Positions 8,726 through 63,987 of a DNA stretch of 64,000 nucleotides are shown piece by piece (the first letter of the stretch is position 1; the number at the start of each line of letters is the position of its first letter). The notes below the pieces were generated by a model. It did not search any database. It saw nothing but the letters and a program-made list of their open reading frames with translations, and had not been told where the DNA came from. The translations under genes and the position numbers were made by a program. Source of the stretch: Sanyastnella coralliicola (GTDB lineage: Bacteria > Bacteroidota > Bacteroidia > Flavobacteriales_D > Sanyastnellaceae); assembly GCF_030845195.1 (NCBI RefSeq), contig NZ_CP132543.1, forward strand, positions 124,001 to 188,000, read 5' to 3'.

Positions 8726-11700
8726 ATGAAAAGACTATTAACCTTCATTGCTCTACTAGCAGGTGTTTTCGCACTTTCTACAGCGCAAGCACAGGTCAAT
8801 ATCATTGACGAACAACTTCGCGACGGTGCAGCACCAGCGGGTTGGGGTGTAACTGATGTGGCCTTCACAACTTCAGCAGGTGGTTACGCCAATTTTACTG
8901 GTACTACCGGAGTACTTGAAACAACAGTTGTTGATCTTACTCCTTACACTACCGTTGACCTAACCTTTACGGTGGCAAAATTCGGTTCTGGTGATGATGG
9001 ACCAATCACTGTGGAAGTATCTGATGATGGTGGTGCGACTTTTACGGCGCAGACATTCGACTCTCCAACGCCAACATCTTCGACTTACCTTACTTCTGGC
9101 CCAACTACAATCACTGCCACAGGAAACAACGTTGTGATTCGCTTTAGCGCCGCGAACAGTGCTTCAAACAAGCGAGTACGTGACGTAGTTCTTGTAGGTT
9201 TTGCAGGTGGCACACCAGGATGTACTGATGTAACGGCATGTAACTATGACGCTTCAGCAACTATCGATGACGGTTCTTGTGAATTCGTAAGCTGTGCAGG
9301 ATGTACAGACCCTACAGCATGTAACTACGATATGTCAGCGACGATTGATGATGCTTCTTGTTTTTTCGTAGGTGATGCTTGTGACGACGGTGATGCGGCA
9401 ACAATCAACGACTTGGTGCAAGCTGACTGTGGTTGTGCTGGTACTGTAGCTTCTACAGTTGATTTGATCATTACAGAGATTCACTACAACGGAAACGACG
9501 GTGCAGGATTCCCTGACGGAAATTACGAGTTCGTTGAGATCTACAACAACGAAGCCGTTGCGGTAGACTTAACTGATTTCTTCATGGGTGGTGTGACTTT
9601 CACTTTCCCGGCAGGAGCTTCTATTGCAGCTGGTGAGTACATCATCGTTGCTATCGATCCTCCATTCTACACTGGAAATGGATACCAAGTATTTGGACCG
9701 TTTACAGGAGGTCTAGGAAACTCTGGTGAGACGGTATCGATTTTCGATAACGCTGGCGTTCTCGCAGATGAAGTTCCTTATGACGACGGTAACGGTTGGC
9801 CAACTTCTCCTGATGGAGCGGGTCCTTCATTGGAGCTTGCAGATCTAGCGGCTGACAACAGCGATGCGGCAAATTGGCAAGCATCATGTGATGATAACGG
9901 AACTCCTGGTGCGGCGAATAGCACGCTTCCTTGTAACCCTTCAGTACCAGGAACAATCGTTGAGATTCAAACAGGAGTTATCGCAACGGGAACAACAGTT
10001 GAAACGAACGGTATCGTGACAGGTGTTTACGCTTCTCTTTACACAGTCCAAGATGGAACTGGGGCAAACTCTGGAATCTGGGTTGAAGGTACAGGTGTTG
10101 CTCTTGGAGATGACGTAACTGTAGTTGGTGACGTTGCTGAATCATTCGACCTAACAATCATTCAGAACGCACTAGTGACTATCAATACTTCAGGAAACGC
10201 TCTTCCTGCGGCTGAGCTTCTTAGCACACTTGCTATCAACGATGAGCAGTGGGAAGGAGTACTCGTTGAAACTACAGGATTGGTTGACAACGGTGATCTA
10301 GGATTCGGTGAGTGGAGCATTGATGATGCTTCAGGACCAGTTCGTATCGACGACGTGAACGGCGTAGCTGTTACTCCAACAGTTGTTGGTGACCAGTACA
10401 CAGTGATCGGACCATTGTACTACTCATTTGGCGCATACAAGATTGCTCCACGTGATAACGCAACTGATATCTTGAAGTGGGGATGTACTGATGTGGCTTT
10501 CCCTAACTACGACCCAGCAGCGGTGATCGATGATGGTTCTTGTGGTGTTGTTCCTGGATGTACAGATCCAACGGCTGACAACTACGATCCATCAGCAACA
10601 ATTGACGATGGTTCTTGTATCATCAGCGGATGTACAGACCCAACAGCGTTGAACTACAATGCCAATGCGAACAACGATGACGGTTCTTGTTACTTCACAC
10701 TACCAAACTTGGTGATCAACGAGATCCACTACAACCCTTGTACTGATCAAGGTGATGATACGATCTACGAATTCGTAGAGATCTACAATGCAGATGCAGT
10801 TTCTGTAGATCTAGAAGGAATCACATTCTCTGCAGGTATCGATTTCACTTTCGGTGCTGGTGCAACGATCGCAGCTGGTGAGTACATCATCGTAGCTGTA
10901 ACGGCTGCTACTTACGCAGGAAACGGTTACCAAGTATTTGAAGCGAACTCTGGTGGCTTCTCTAATGGAGGTGAGGTAGTGACAATCTCTGACGCATTCG
11001 GAAACGTAATTGACACTGTTACCTATGATGATGGAAACGGATGGCCAACTTCGCCTGATGGAGGATGTCCTTCATTGGAGTTGATCGATCCCGCATTGGA
11101 TAACACTGACCCTGCAAACTGGCAAGGTTCATACGTAGACAACGGGACTCCAGGAGCGGTGAATTCTATGCCTCCTCCATCTACGAACTACACCATCTTC
11201 GAAATCCAATCAGATGTAGACGTTGACGGTGGTTCTAACAAGTCAGGTGAATACGTAACTACTTCAGGTGTAGTAACAGGCGTTTACTCAAACGGTCAGT
11301 TCGCTATGCAAGATGGTACAGGTGCATACTCAGGTATCTGGGTTGAAGGTACAGGTGTTGCTGTAGGTGACGAAGTCGATGTTACAGGTACTGTAACTGA
11401 GTTCTTCGGATTGACTTTGATCTCGAACACTGCATTCATCACCGTATTGACTAGCGGAAACGCACTTCCGGCTCCTCAGCTATTGGTGACAAACGGGATC
11501 AACGACGAGCAGTGGGAAGGTGTTCTTGTTTCTGTAACAGGACCAGTTTCTAACGGTGACGTTGGTTTCGGAGAATGGGCAGTGAACGACGGGTCTGGTG
11601 ACGGACTAGTGGATGACCTAGGAATTCTTCTAGCGCCCGTTGACGCAGGAGTTACTTACACTGTGACTGGACCAAACTACTACAGCTTCGGAGCATTTAA

Positions 11701-36248: not shown

Positions 36249-36290
36249 TTAAGGCCTAAGGCTTAAGGCTTAAGGCGTAGGGCTTAAGGT
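36249..36290. repeat. Heptanucleotide tandem repeat, TTAAGGC family
   Basis: Six contiguous 7-base units: TTAAGGC, CTAAGGC, TTAAGGC, TTAAGGC, GTAGGGC, TTAAGGT. They lie just after the recG stop, in the convergent spacer with the NTF2-like gene. The unit length matches the larger arrays near 60 kb, although the sequence differs. Confidence 0.85.
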
Positions 36291-59238: not shown

Positions 59239-59985
59239 ATGAAGCATATTCTACATGTCGCATTTGCGCTAATCCTCAGTTCATCGGCGTTTGCACAGCC
59301 TGATAGCGAGGTTTTTCCAGATTTCACATACAGCGATTTGAACGGCATTGATCAAAATCTGTACTCGTATTTGGATCAAAATAAGATCGTCATCATCGAC
59401 ATTTTCGCCACTTGGTGTCCGAATTGTGTCAATTCGATTCCCGGAGTAGAAGCAATTTGGGAGGAACACGGTCCTGATGGTGATGATTCTGTGATGATAC
59501 TTTCTATGGAGCGCGACGCCAACACAAATAATGAAGCTGCGTTTGTCAATACCCACGGCATAGAGAACCCAGTGATCACCGGCGCTGAAGATTTCATCGC
59601 GAACACACTGAATGTGCCTTATCAACCGTACTTCTTCGTTGTCTGCCCTGATCGTTCATACGAACTACGCATTGGGGGTATCGGAGGTGATAGCACTATT
59701 CTGACTGATTTCTTCGAAGATTGTTCTTCAATCGTATCAGTTGAAGAACAACAAGAAGTGGCCTTCTCACTGTTGAATACAGTTGTTGATGCGGATCTTT
59801 TCGTCTTCAGCAACGGAGCCAATTCTCAGTTCAAAATTGTGTCTACTTCAGGTCAATTGGTTCGTTCAGGAGCTTTGTCGTTCGGAGATAACAACATTGA
59901 TCTGTCGTCACTGGCTGCAGGCACCTACGTAGTTCAGTTGACAAATGAGAAAGGGCAGCTTTCGCAACAGATTGTTAAGAGGTAG
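59239..59985 (+). CDS. TlpA-like thioredoxin-fold protein with T9SS sorting domain
   Basis: A 248-residue exported protein (signal peptide 1-19, ending SAFAQ). A TlpA/ResA-type thioredoxin domain (about 22-160) has the redox pair Cys60-Cys63 in FATWCPNCVNSIP and the cis-proline loop near PYQPYFFV. The C-terminal 70 residues are a type A T9SS domain (ADLFVFSNGANSQFKIV ... GTYVVQL). Most TlpA proteins are periplasmic, so sorting to the cell surface is unusual; it may reduce or oxidise thiols of other secreted Cys-rich proteins (inference). Confidence 0.85.
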   Translation: MKHILHVAFALILSSSAFAQPDSEVFPDFTYSDLNGIDQNLYSYLDQNKIVIIDIFATWCPNCVNSIPGVEAIWEEHGPDGDDSVMILSMERDANTNNEAAFVNTHGIENPVITGAEDFIANTLNVPYQPYFFVVCPDRSYELRIGGIGGDSTILTDFFEDCSSIVSVEEQQEVAFSLLNTVVDADLFVFSNGANSQFKIVSTSGQLVRSGALSFGDNNIDLSSLAAGTYVVQLTNEKGQLSQQIVKR

Positions 59986-60075
59986 TGGAACGTGGGTTGC
60001 GGATCGCGGATCGCGGAATGCGGAATGCGGAATGCGGAATGCGGATCGCGGTAGACGGCAGACGGTAGACCGTAG
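59985..60075. repeat. Heptanucleotide tandem array, GCGGAAT family (13 units)
   Basis: Thirteen consecutive 7-base units start at 59985: GTGGAAC, GTGGGTT, GCGGATC x2, GCGGAAT x4, GCGGATC, GCGGTAG, ACGGCAG, ACGGTAG, ACCGTAG. Phase is kept throughout, and the array ends exactly where the hairpin at 60076-60093 begins. The first base overlaps the stop codon of the thioredoxin-like gene. Confidence 0.85.
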
Positions 60076-60147
60076 CGGCGCATTTATGCGCCGTTAAAGG
60101 AACGGTTTCCTCTTAAGGTGAAATGTAGGGACGCATGAAATGCGTCC
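60041..60147. repeat. Compound intergenic repeat, copy 1 (heptads plus two hairpins)
   Basis: It contains the last heptads, hairpin A (CGGCGCATTTATGCGCCG, 60076-60093), a linker with TTTCCTCTTAAGGTGAAATG and hairpin B (GGACGCATGAAATGCGTCC, 60129-60147). A second copy lies at 60213-60305. The minus-strand open frames here are products of the repeat and are not genes. Confidence 0.85.
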
Positions 60148-60177
60148 ATATCGTGCATTTGGTATTGGTGCGATGAG

Positions 60178-60233
60178 GAACGCTGAATGCGGGACGTGGT
60201 ACGTGGTGGAACGCGGATCGCGGTAGACGGTAG
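60178..60233. repeat. Heptanucleotide array, second copy (8 units)
   Basis: Eight 7-base units in phase: GAACGCT, GAATGCG, GGACGTG, GTACGTG, GTGGAAC, GCGGATC, GCGGTAG, ACGGTAG. They run directly into hairpin A of copy 2. They share unit types with the first array but are more degenerate at the left end. Confidence 0.7.
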
Positions 60234-60305
60234 CGGCGCATAAATGCGCCGACGAAGGACCGATTTCCTCTTAAGGTGAAATGTAGGGACGCATGAAATG
60301 CGTCC
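60213..60305. repeat. Compound intergenic repeat, copy 2
   Basis: This is the second copy of the unit at 60041-60147. Hairpin A is CGGCGCATAAATGCGCCG (60234-60251), with compensating loop changes relative to copy 1. Hairpin B is identical to copy 1 (60287-60305), and the linker TTTCCTCTTAAGGTGAAATG is also identical. Confidence 0.85.
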
Positions 60306-60307
60306 AA

Positions 60308-60348: not shown

Positions 60349-60423
60349 TGGGCCCTGCTGGATTCGAACCAGCGACCCCCTGCTTGTAAGGCAGGTGCTC
60401 TGAACCAACTGAGCTAAGAGCCC
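60349..60423 (-). tRNA. tRNA-Val (anticodon TAC)
   Basis: A 75-base gene. The acceptor arms GGGCTCT / AGGGCCC pair with one G-U; the D arm is GCTCAGTTGGTTCAGAGC; the anticodon stem CCTGC / GCAGG encloses the loop CTTACAA with anticodon TAC; the T arm is GCTGG-TTCGAAT-CCAGC. The discriminator is A, and CCA is not encoded. It is transcribed from a good promoter at 60530-60559 through a tRNA-like remnant and ends at the terminator 60308-60340. Confidence 0.96.
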
Positions 60424-62370: not shown

Positions 62371-62457
62371 ATTCTCTAAACCTCGGATTCCAGTCTGGCG
62401 TCCATAGAAGCGGCGAATGGGAGTGTGAGAAAATCCATTTCTTCCTAACTTGTTGAC

Positions 62458-63987
62458 ATGAAGTCTGTTCTGCTAATCGTCGTAGCGCTTTTGAGCGTTT
62501 CACTGTGTCGTGCTCAAGAAGCTACTTGGGCCGAAGACATTGCCCCGTTGATCTATGATAATTGTTCGAAATGCCACCATGAAGGACAAGCAGCACATTT
62601 CTCTTTAATGAGTTATGATGACGTTGCAGAACACTCTCTTGGAATTTCATATGCCCTTGGTGAAGGAATTATGCCGCCATGGCCTGCAGATCCTGAATAC
62701 CGGCATTTCGTTGGAGAAACATACTTGTCACCCGCTGAGAAAGCGATGGTGATTGATTGGATCTCGGAGGGAATGCCCTTCGGTGATCCTGAGGTAGAAC
62801 CTGAGGCTCCTGAATTTGAAGACGGTGGCACGCTTTTAGAATCGGTTGACTTCGTTGCTGCCATCGAACCGTACGAGATTCAGTACAACTCTGAGGAGTA
62901 TCGTTGGTTCGTTATACCAACCAACTTCAGCGAGACGAAGTACATCCAAGCCGTAGAAGTCATGGCTGGTATTTCTGAAGCTGTTCACCATGCAGATATT
63001 CATGTAGACGTTACAGGTAATTCAGCCGCCTATGATGCGCTTGATCCTCTTCCAGGATTCAATACACAGATCGGATGGCCCACAACAACAACCTACATCA
63101 ATGCCTGGCAACCAGGCGCTGGTCCTGCGCGCTATCCAGATAACTGGGGAATAGCACTTCCACCTGGTGCTGATCTCGTTATTGAAATCCACTACGGTTT
63201 TGGCTTCGCTGGAGAGGTAGATAGCACCTACATGAATCTCGAGTTCGTGGATGACCCAGACAACGTACGTCCCATTTCAGTGGGCTGGTTGATGGGGTCA
63301 GGACAAATGACAGACGGTCCACTTGTCATCCCACCCAATCAGATCAGCACTTTCCATCAAGAAGCCACGCCATTCTGGAGCGACAAATCCTTGCTCGCAA
63401 TTTGTCCGCACATGCATCTCCTAGGAGAGTCCTATAAAGTCTGGATGGAGACGCCGCAAGGTGATTCAATACCATTGATAGATATTCCGGATTGGCAATT
63501 TAGGTGGCAGTTCTACTATAATTTTCAGTCTCCTCAGTACTTCCCGGCTGGCTCTGTATTGAAGAGCATTGGGCAATATGACAATACCGTCAACAACCCG
63601 GATAATCCGAACGATCCCCCAGAAACGGTCTATGACGGAGGTCTGACAACGGATGAAATGTTTCTCTGCTATTTCATCTATGCAGATTATCAGCCAGGTG
63701 ATGAGGAGTTGATCCTTGATCCAGATTTGATTACTTCAGTGGAAGATTTGACGACCACAGAAGAGTTGGCACCTTGGCCAAACCCAACCTCGTCTCAGCT
63801 CCAGTTGAATCTACCTTCAGACCAGTCTTCTGAACTGTCTATTTATTCATCTCATGGACAATTGGTCCAAAGCGATGTAGTCAACGGAAGATCGACCATC
63901 GATGTGAGTAGTTTAAGCACAGGATTCTATTCTATTGTCGTTCGAAACGACCTCTGGATTCGTAAGTCCTCATTTATAAAACGTTAG
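62458..63987 (+). CDS. Cytochrome c / copper monooxygenase-like protein with T9SS sorting domain
   Basis: A 509-residue exported protein (signal peptide 1-19). A heme c site Cys36-Ser-Lys-Cys39-His40 lies in DNCSKCHHEGQA, within a short planctomycete-type cytochrome domain (about 22-105; GIMPPWPADPEY). A domain like the Cu type II ascorbate-dependent monooxygenases (PHM/DBH) follows, with candidate copper ligands in SEAVHHADIHVD, LVIEIHYGF and CPHMHLLGESYKVWM. The last about 75 residues are a type A T9SS domain (APWPNPTSSQLQLNL ... GFYSIVV). Cytochrome-monooxygenase fusions of this kind are known in Bacteroidota, but the substrate is unknown. Confidence 0.82.
   Translation: MKSVLLIVVALLSVSLCRAQEATWAEDIAPLIYDNCSKCHHEGQAAHFSLMSYDDVAEHSLGISYALGEGIMPPWPADPEYRHFVGETYLSPAEKAMVIDWISEGMPFGDPEVEPEAPEFEDGGTLLESVDFVAAIEPYEIQYNSEEYRWFVIPTNFSETKYIQAVEVMAGISEAVHHADIHVDVTGNSAAYDALDPLPGFNTQIGWPTTTTYINAWQPGAGPARYPDNWGIALPPGADLVIEIHYGFGFAGEVDSTYMNLEFVDDPDNVRPISVGWLMGSGQMTDGPLVIPPNQISTFHQEATPFWSDKSLLAICPHMHLLGESYKVWMETPQGDSIPLIDIPDWQFRWQFYYNFQSPQYFPAGSVLKSIGQYDNTVNNPDNPNDPPETVYDGGLTTDEMFLCYFIYADYQPGDEELILDPDLITSVEDLTTTEELAPWPNPTSSQLQLNLPSDQSSELSIYSSHGQLVQSDVVNGRSTIDVSSLSTGFYSIVVRNDLWIRKSSFIKR

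Follow-up and report, generated by a model that had tools for sequence, protein, structure and literature searches.

Period-7 repeat arrays, mostly with GG in each unit, in the intergenic spacers of a Flavobacteriales genus

The two heptamer arrays described here lie in a 64,000-nucleotide stretch, the window (bases 124001–188000 of G000, a 4,097,636-base single-contig genome), and probably belong to a population of heptad repeats, mostly with a GG in each unit, that is spread genome-wide through the spacers of a Flavobacteriales genus. The reading that we favour, and hold to be rather probable, is that slippage in steps of 7 bases acts on dispersed G-rich elements, several of which lie behind stop codons. 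Sister genomes have arrays that are longer or shorter mostly by whole 7-base units, in unrelated words, such that the sequence can drift while the phase is kept; the steps themselves would arise by slipped-strand copying. Several families have copies among different flanks, often as four units and, at stop codons, with the G-rich strand in sense. Such four-unit elements may be retained because four spaced GG boxes act in the 3′ end of the transcript or in the DNA behind the gene, possibly as a weak quadruplex or as a protein-binding array, as proposals for similar heptamers elsewhere have it. The arrays of the window would then be long, slippage-expanded cases directly past a stop codon. They connect to two copies of a pair of REP-like hairpins with GTAG tags, and a relative has a different gene upstream at this position.

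Table 1 Features of the array locus and of related positions in the window
Feature	Position	Strand	Remark
Heptamer array 1, 13 units, G-rich on +	59985..60075	+	First base is the last base of the upstream stop codon
GTAG tag and hairpin A, copy 1 (stem 8, loop 2)	60072..60093	+	GTAG is also the end of array 1
GTAG tag and hairpin B, copy 1 (stem 8, loop 3)	60125..60147	+	
Heptamer array 2, 8 units	60178..60233	+	GG phase shifts by 3 bases from unit 4 to unit 5
GTAG tag and hairpin A, copy 2	60230..60251	+	GTAG is also the end of array 2
GTAG tag and hairpin B, copy 2	60283..60305	+	L111 homology restarts at 60303, within the final three bases
Duplicated unit (array end, hairpin A, hairpin B), copy 1	60063..60148	+	Copy 2 is 60221-60306
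Another heptamer array, TAAGGCN family	36249..36289	+	Begins a few bases past a stop codon
Upstream gene: thioredoxin/redoxin-like protein with secretion sorting tail (Por_Secre_tail)	59239..59985	+	
tRNA gene downstream of the arrays	60349..60423	-	Opposite strand

The periodicity of both arrays is sharp. At lag 7 the match is 0.80 for array 1 and 0.65 for array 2, against at most 0.24 and 0.37, respectively, at the other lags from 4 to 11, and of 5,000 Markov shuffles none came up to either of these values, whichever lag in that range was taken. The value of the TAAGGCN array elsewhere in the window was equalled by one of 5,000 shuffles. These measurements bear out the 13 and 8 heptamers of the original prediction, which had also stated that the 7-base phase is never lost. 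That statement holds for array 1, where the GGs of units 1–12 share one phase, an extra GG comes from a GGG and unit 13 is without GG, but fails for array 2, whose GGs start at 13/14, 20 and 27 and then at 30, 37, 44 and 51. Both arrays do end at hairpin A, as had been claimed; they do so because the array end and the hairpins form one duplicated unit, made in a single event, so that the two endings are not independent. The copies of this unit are identical at 78 of 86 bases. At the gathering threshold of Rfam the arrays have no match, the sole match in the window being a tRNA. A flanking methyltransferase is 93% identical to one from the MAG Flavobacteriales bacterium ALOHA_ZT_13, and it is on the name of this MAG that a marine habitat of the organism might be proposed.

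The locus does not stand alone, since a search for further heptamer arrays found many in the genome. A lag scan of the window together with 20 evenly spaced 20-kb stretches of G000 (464 kb in all; counts at periods 14, 16, 21 and 24 were treated as multiples) gave 47 period-7 arrays, two of them in the window, along with 9 of period 8, 2 of period 6 and 0–2 at each of the other periods from 2 to 13. A separate 800 kb gave 67 period-7 arrays, 4 of period 8, 4 of period 6 and 0–3 at other short periods. Scaled up from the sample, the whole genome would hold roughly 370 period-7 arrays. By a simple ORF rule under which about 90% of the 464 kb is coding, 46 of the 47 arrays are intergenic, and in the second sample (87% coding) 60 of the 67 lie outside ORFs and 7 inside; in both samples ORFs more than 10% covered by arrays had been removed beforehand, which biases these counts toward the intergenic result.

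The words of the arrays are many (GGADYGC, GGCNTAD, GGCNDTA, GGTDCGT, NGTDGAC and CGGAYGC, as well as words free of GG). In 851 kb, 95 of 111 arrays have a GG in phase in 60% or more of their units. The units carry mostly GG and not GGG, as in GCGGATC and GGCTTAA, and a GGG tract in each unit is not what is found. The period also extends beyond the detected arrays: in the remaining spacer DNA of G000, 4-mers recur at 9.5–10.7 per thousand at lags 7, 14 and 21 and at 4.1–8.1 per thousand at the remaining lags between 4 and 30, lag 27 (9.6) apart, and in coding DNA the values are 4.0 at lag 7 and 3.9 at lag 14. We considered whether words that fold into hairpins promote slippage and rejected this, as 32 consensus words folded no better than shuffled words (mean z −0.16 and −0.18).

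Two arrangements of the arrays may be recorded here. Nearby arrays frequently stand in opposite orientation (G000 C1:2581873-2582051, 1855076-1855157 and 2246734-2246798), like the inverted pairs of Xanthomonas. Spacers at L093 (3940-5490 and 8700-10170) hold compound repeats whose parts recur in the same order: octamers, an A-rich stretch, a 25-base CGGAYGC element, a short common sequence, a hairpin and C-rich heptamers.

Comparison of sister genomes shows how array lengths change. Contig C23 of the sister genome G001 (335 kb) is colinear with 2.68–3.04 Mb of G000 and 86–95% identical in its main segments. Of the gaps of at least 5 bases between the two, 13 of 21 in or near arrays have a length divisible by 7, vs 6 of 31 elsewhere. 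In one orthologous pair of arrays a single word stands in 8 vs 14 units, and for several pairs the difference is one unit; gaps that are no multiple of 7 occur as well, in other pairs. The sister genomes thus differ mostly by whole 7-base units, which supports the slippage that had been suggested from the drift of the units. Within arrays, unit identity falls from 0.84 between neighbours to 0.56 at a distance of 8 units, and neighbouring units are more similar (0.835) than after the order of units is shuffled (0.737). The latter test covered 35 of 43 arrays of at least 42 bases, eight with fewer than three distinct units being excluded, and is biased in its own favour, the arrays having been chosen by their lag-7 similarity. 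Since local duplication in steps of 7 preserves phase automatically, sequence can drift while the phase is kept, and slipped-strand copying is the process from which we infer that the 7-base steps come.

In the same 335 kb region, alignment breaks between G001 and G000 affect 9 of the 20 spacers that hold arrays, vs 9 of the 118 that hold none; for spacers matched by length 2.0 breaks are expected, and none of 2,000 draws gave 9. These numbers would fit ectopic recombination between dispersed arrays, which, in place of slippage, would spread the words and move genes, as would contig C76 of G001, two segments of which, with an array-flanked stretch between them, correspond to positions 3.07 Mb and 0.94 Mb in G000. 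We consider this rather unlikely as the general explanation. A break here is the end of an alignment, and arrays align poorly; under a stricter listing 12 of 20 breaks are without an array, and about five of the 8 with one are large content changes. The comparison moreover covers one region, and G001 is a draft in which a misjoin is possible. At the locus of the window itself, where homology to the related locus L111 resumes at the end of the second hairpin pair, the preceding gene differs, its best local match having 21% identity and covering the tail. Contig C25 of G001 joins sequence near L093 4479 to sequence near 10150, with no match listed for the intervening genes. Farther along the window, about 976 bases (62377-63352), overlapping a large ORF (62458-63987), are absent at one point of L111.

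The pattern GCGGANNGCGGANNGCGG has 172 matches in G000 (20 for the reversed-pattern control), 26 in G001 (control 2), 2 each in G002 and G050 and none in the remaining 56 of 60 genomes. A four-box GGC pattern has 152 matches in G000 (control 11) and 35 in G001 (control 0), and is absent from 58 other genomes, three of which had control matches. By lag scan, G001 has 14 period-7 arrays in 140 kb, one of the seven stretches having been picked at a match. In the congener G002, 120 kb (one of six stretches picked at a match) hold 5 period-7 and 11 period-8 arrays, four of the five belonging to one tandem compound repeat and the 11 lying in about three places. The 2 arrays of G050 are in a stretch picked at a match, and six sampled stretches of other members of the family or order had no arrays. 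In spacer DNA beyond the arrays, lags 7, 14 and 21 stand out in both G000 and G001. In G002 (15 kb of spacer) lags 8 and 16 are highest, lags 14 and 25 nearly equalling them. Values of 7.9 at lag 7 and 9.1 at lag 9 come from 14 kb of spacer in seven pooled stretches of other relatives, which shows how noisy the smaller samples are. The G002 spacers L125 4965-5546, L125 9876-10493 and L121 187-796 hold period-8 arrays whose octamer word changes into another without loss of phase.

A bolder proposal can be framed from these data, one that we regard as a long shot: the genus may have an activity, frequently at work past stop codons, by which spacer DNA is duplicated and deleted in a step of constant, sequence-independent length (7 in G000 and G001; mainly 8 in G002, at few loci). 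The step would be a heritable property of the copying machinery of a lineage, and the arrays would serve as joints for the gain, loss and movement of genes. Many words locked to 7 in a complete genome, an alignable sister and a congener richer in period 8 (from a small sample) make the cause of the step testable apart from the sequence.

Several families show a preference for four units. In 851 kb, 18 of 29 GGCNTAD runs of at least two units have exactly four and one has three; in the 800 kb sample, 10 of 17 have four and 4 have three, and the peak in this second sample alone is not significant (p 0.09). When runs are grouped by distinct flanks, four vs three units stand at 16 vs 1 and 10 vs 4 in the two samples. 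Exactly four GGC boxes are present at 38 of 47 loci, among 59 matches listed of 77 on the forward strand genome-wide, in a tally whose pattern itself bars loci with fewer boxes. For NGTDGAC, four units occur in 14 runs and three in 6 in the 851 kb, but 7 of the 14 lie within L093 and are mostly copies of one compound repeat, so that the peak is barely present there after flank grouping (7 vs 6, first sample); the second sample has 13 vs 2, every one with distinct flanks. In CGGAYGC the peak is at four boxes, made up of three units and a further CGGA, with 15 and 9 flank-distinct groups in the two samples. GGCNDTA has 8 vs 1 and 6 vs 2 runs of four and three units, runs of two being commoner, and GGADYGC and GGTDCGT have no peak at four full units in either sample. 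Pooled over all GG boxes the four-unit peak is weak: runs of three and four number 68 and 70 in the first sample and 59 and 41 in the second at period 7, and 17–36 and 1–9 at other periods. The arrays of the window, at 13 and 8 units, are not of this length.

Positions within the unit also vary unequally. Of 29 windows of the TAAGGCN family with a single mismatch to TAAGGCNTAAGGCNTAAGGC, 23 have that mismatch in the third base of the unit, as T or G in every case; this base is one of six constrained positions, and overlapping windows were tallied separately. In a looser scan that mixes families, the supposed core positions vary too, up to 43–52%.

The position of the arrays relative to genes is polar. 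Within 20 bases of a stop codon (the tally covers arrays flanked on either side by a called gene, and unit patterns were slightly different between samples), five G-rich families have 23 arrays in sense and 1 in antisense among 92 in the first sample; of 68 arrays in the second sample, 23 are in sense and 2 in antisense. The expectation for either orientation is about 7%. GGCNTAD supplies most of this excess (11 of 23 and 9 of 16 in sense in the two samples). NGTDGAC is in sense at stop codons in 3 of 33 arrays in the first sample, near background, and in 6 of 20 in the second. CGGAYGC has the opposite polarity, with 7 of 26 and 2 of 10 in antisense and none in sense. There is no preference for start codons, within 20 bases of which 2 arrays in sense and 6 in antisense were found among 118 of six families, about 8% being expected for each.

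The peak at four units, the position-biased variation and the polarity at stop codons are unpredicted by slippage alone; therefore two processes are needed. One might go further and hold that the arrays are primarily functional, that a two-layer quadruplex, or an array for a repeat-reading protein, is built from four GG boxes in phase, and that selection, not slippage, holds the period at 7. Those same three features speak for this, as do the in-phase GGs of most arrays. GG boxes separated by 5-base loops form quadruplexes weakly, however, and 16 of the 111 arrays fall short of the 60% share of units with an in-phase GG. Other words also form long arrays, the period-7 signal continues outside arrays and CGGAYGC points the other way. 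Excerpts of PMC4692102 do report the same traits for GGGNATC repeats, and on balance selection by itself is possible but doubtful as the keeper of the period, and we retain slippage acting on dispersed elements as the preferred reading.

Tandem heptamers in several words are known from heterocystous cyanobacteria as short tandemly repeated repetitive (STRR) heptamers. The likeness to these that had been drawn from the window is fair as a kind, although the phylum is different. A search of the literature by name for heptamers of Bacteroidota gave general papers, the relevant work being PMC4692102 and PMC4679880; PMC4060949 yielded nothing on heptamers in a search of the paper by term. The excerpts of PMC4692102 describe the G-rich heptamers GGGNATC and GGGGA(C/T)T of Xanthomonas and Nostoc, which are mostly intergenic, prefer four units, have conserved and variable positions, lie at most 50 bp past stop codons on the coding strand and form inverted pairs, and whose regions in Xanthomonas are more conserved than controls. 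They also note an over-representation of heptamers in bacterial genomes, without a settled explanation, and cite the idea of a polymerase footprint and, in the introduction, three heptamers of Calothrix. The present arrays are likewise mostly intergenic, in sense at stop codons and unequally conserved by position; as to four units, some of their families peak there and others do not. Unlike those repeats, they carry GG and not GGG, comprise several word families in one genome and include GG-free arrays, and their spacers are enriched for synteny breaks (in the one 335 kb region); we therefore set them down as a variant, and not a member, of the PMC4692102 repeats. The four-unit peak and the polarity at stop codons, reported independently in Xanthomonas and Nostoc, suggest a common role or bias across phyla.

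Mixed heptamers in the spacers of Bacteroidetes are not new as such, because they are already reported in PMC4679880, as far as its excerpts go; this overturns the expectation, stated for the window, that such repeats would be foreign to Bacteroidota. The same excerpts describe direct repeats of TAACTGA in patchy lineages of Beggiatoaceae, Cyanobacteria and some Bacteroidetes, other heptamers in the Bacteroidetes spacers, heptamer ranges in Microcystis, and Cyanothece strains that differ by 7-base steps. On account of the heptamer ranges mentioned there for Microcystis and Bacteroidetes spacers, many heptamer words in one genome cannot be claimed as a novelty. The TAACTGA repeats resemble the present arrays as intergenic heptamers with 7-base length steps, and differ in that a single word was followed there and that, in the main genome of that report, it lies mostly just upstream of start codons, whereas stop codons are preferred here.

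Hairpins A and B are palindromes of 18–19 bases, 22–23 bases in total with GTAG, and resemble the GTAG-tagged REPs that excerpts of PMC3733652 define together with RAYTs, where the palindrome beside GTAG measures 20–40 bp: GTAG stands beside a short palindrome, other GTAG-tagged hairpins are dispersed and a Y1_Tnp gene is present. The resemblance ends with the arrays, which are not themselves REPs, and with the tandem hairpins adjoining the weak Y1_Tnp gene (260062-260367), which are of another palindrome and follow ATAG, so that a cognate RAYT flanked by the same REPs is not found. At this place (L154 ~900–1300, near 260000 of G000 C1), at least nine tandem hairpin repeats of about 45–50 bases each lie immediately upstream of the gene. 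Searches for a Y1 transposase gave one match each in G001 and G002.

Since both arrays of the window lead into GTAG and a hairpin, a RAYT or another HUH transposase might lengthen arrays at the GTAG foot of REP hairpins. The Y1_Tnp gene beside its tandem hairpins would suit this, and so would L003, where the 7 bases preceding a related hairpin are also tandemly repeated. We nevertheless judge it very unlikely. A perfect-stem hairpin of at least 7 bp lies within 80 nt of 5 of the 47 arrays in the 464 kb, that of the window included (about 2% per side are expected from hairpin density), and on this count the hairpin was rejected as the general terminus or partner of arrays. GTAG precedes 14 of 362 strong hairpins in 1.65 Mb, each strand counted, four of the 14 being those of the window, and an array was scored in the 60 bases before one of the 14, in the window, where array 2 is too degenerate for the score. 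Of seven related copies of hairpin A that we inspected, none has GTAG, and L003 is the only one with an array before it.

Templated extension, the other mechanism offered in the original prediction, finds no support. Its telomerase-like form, in which a reverse transcriptase adds heptamers from a template, could draw on the one RT gene of G000, whose best PADLOC match is the defence RT Drt8, and on the one RT of G002. It is most improbable: the array-bearing G001, a 99% complete draft, gave no RT match, the words are many and drift inside arrays, unlike copies of a single template, and the arrays gain and lose length in phase. The Drt8-like RT gene (G000 C1:3426689-3427087; L164 294-2637) lies directly after a Pycsar-like cyclase gene (PADLOC E 2e-134 and 6e-95).
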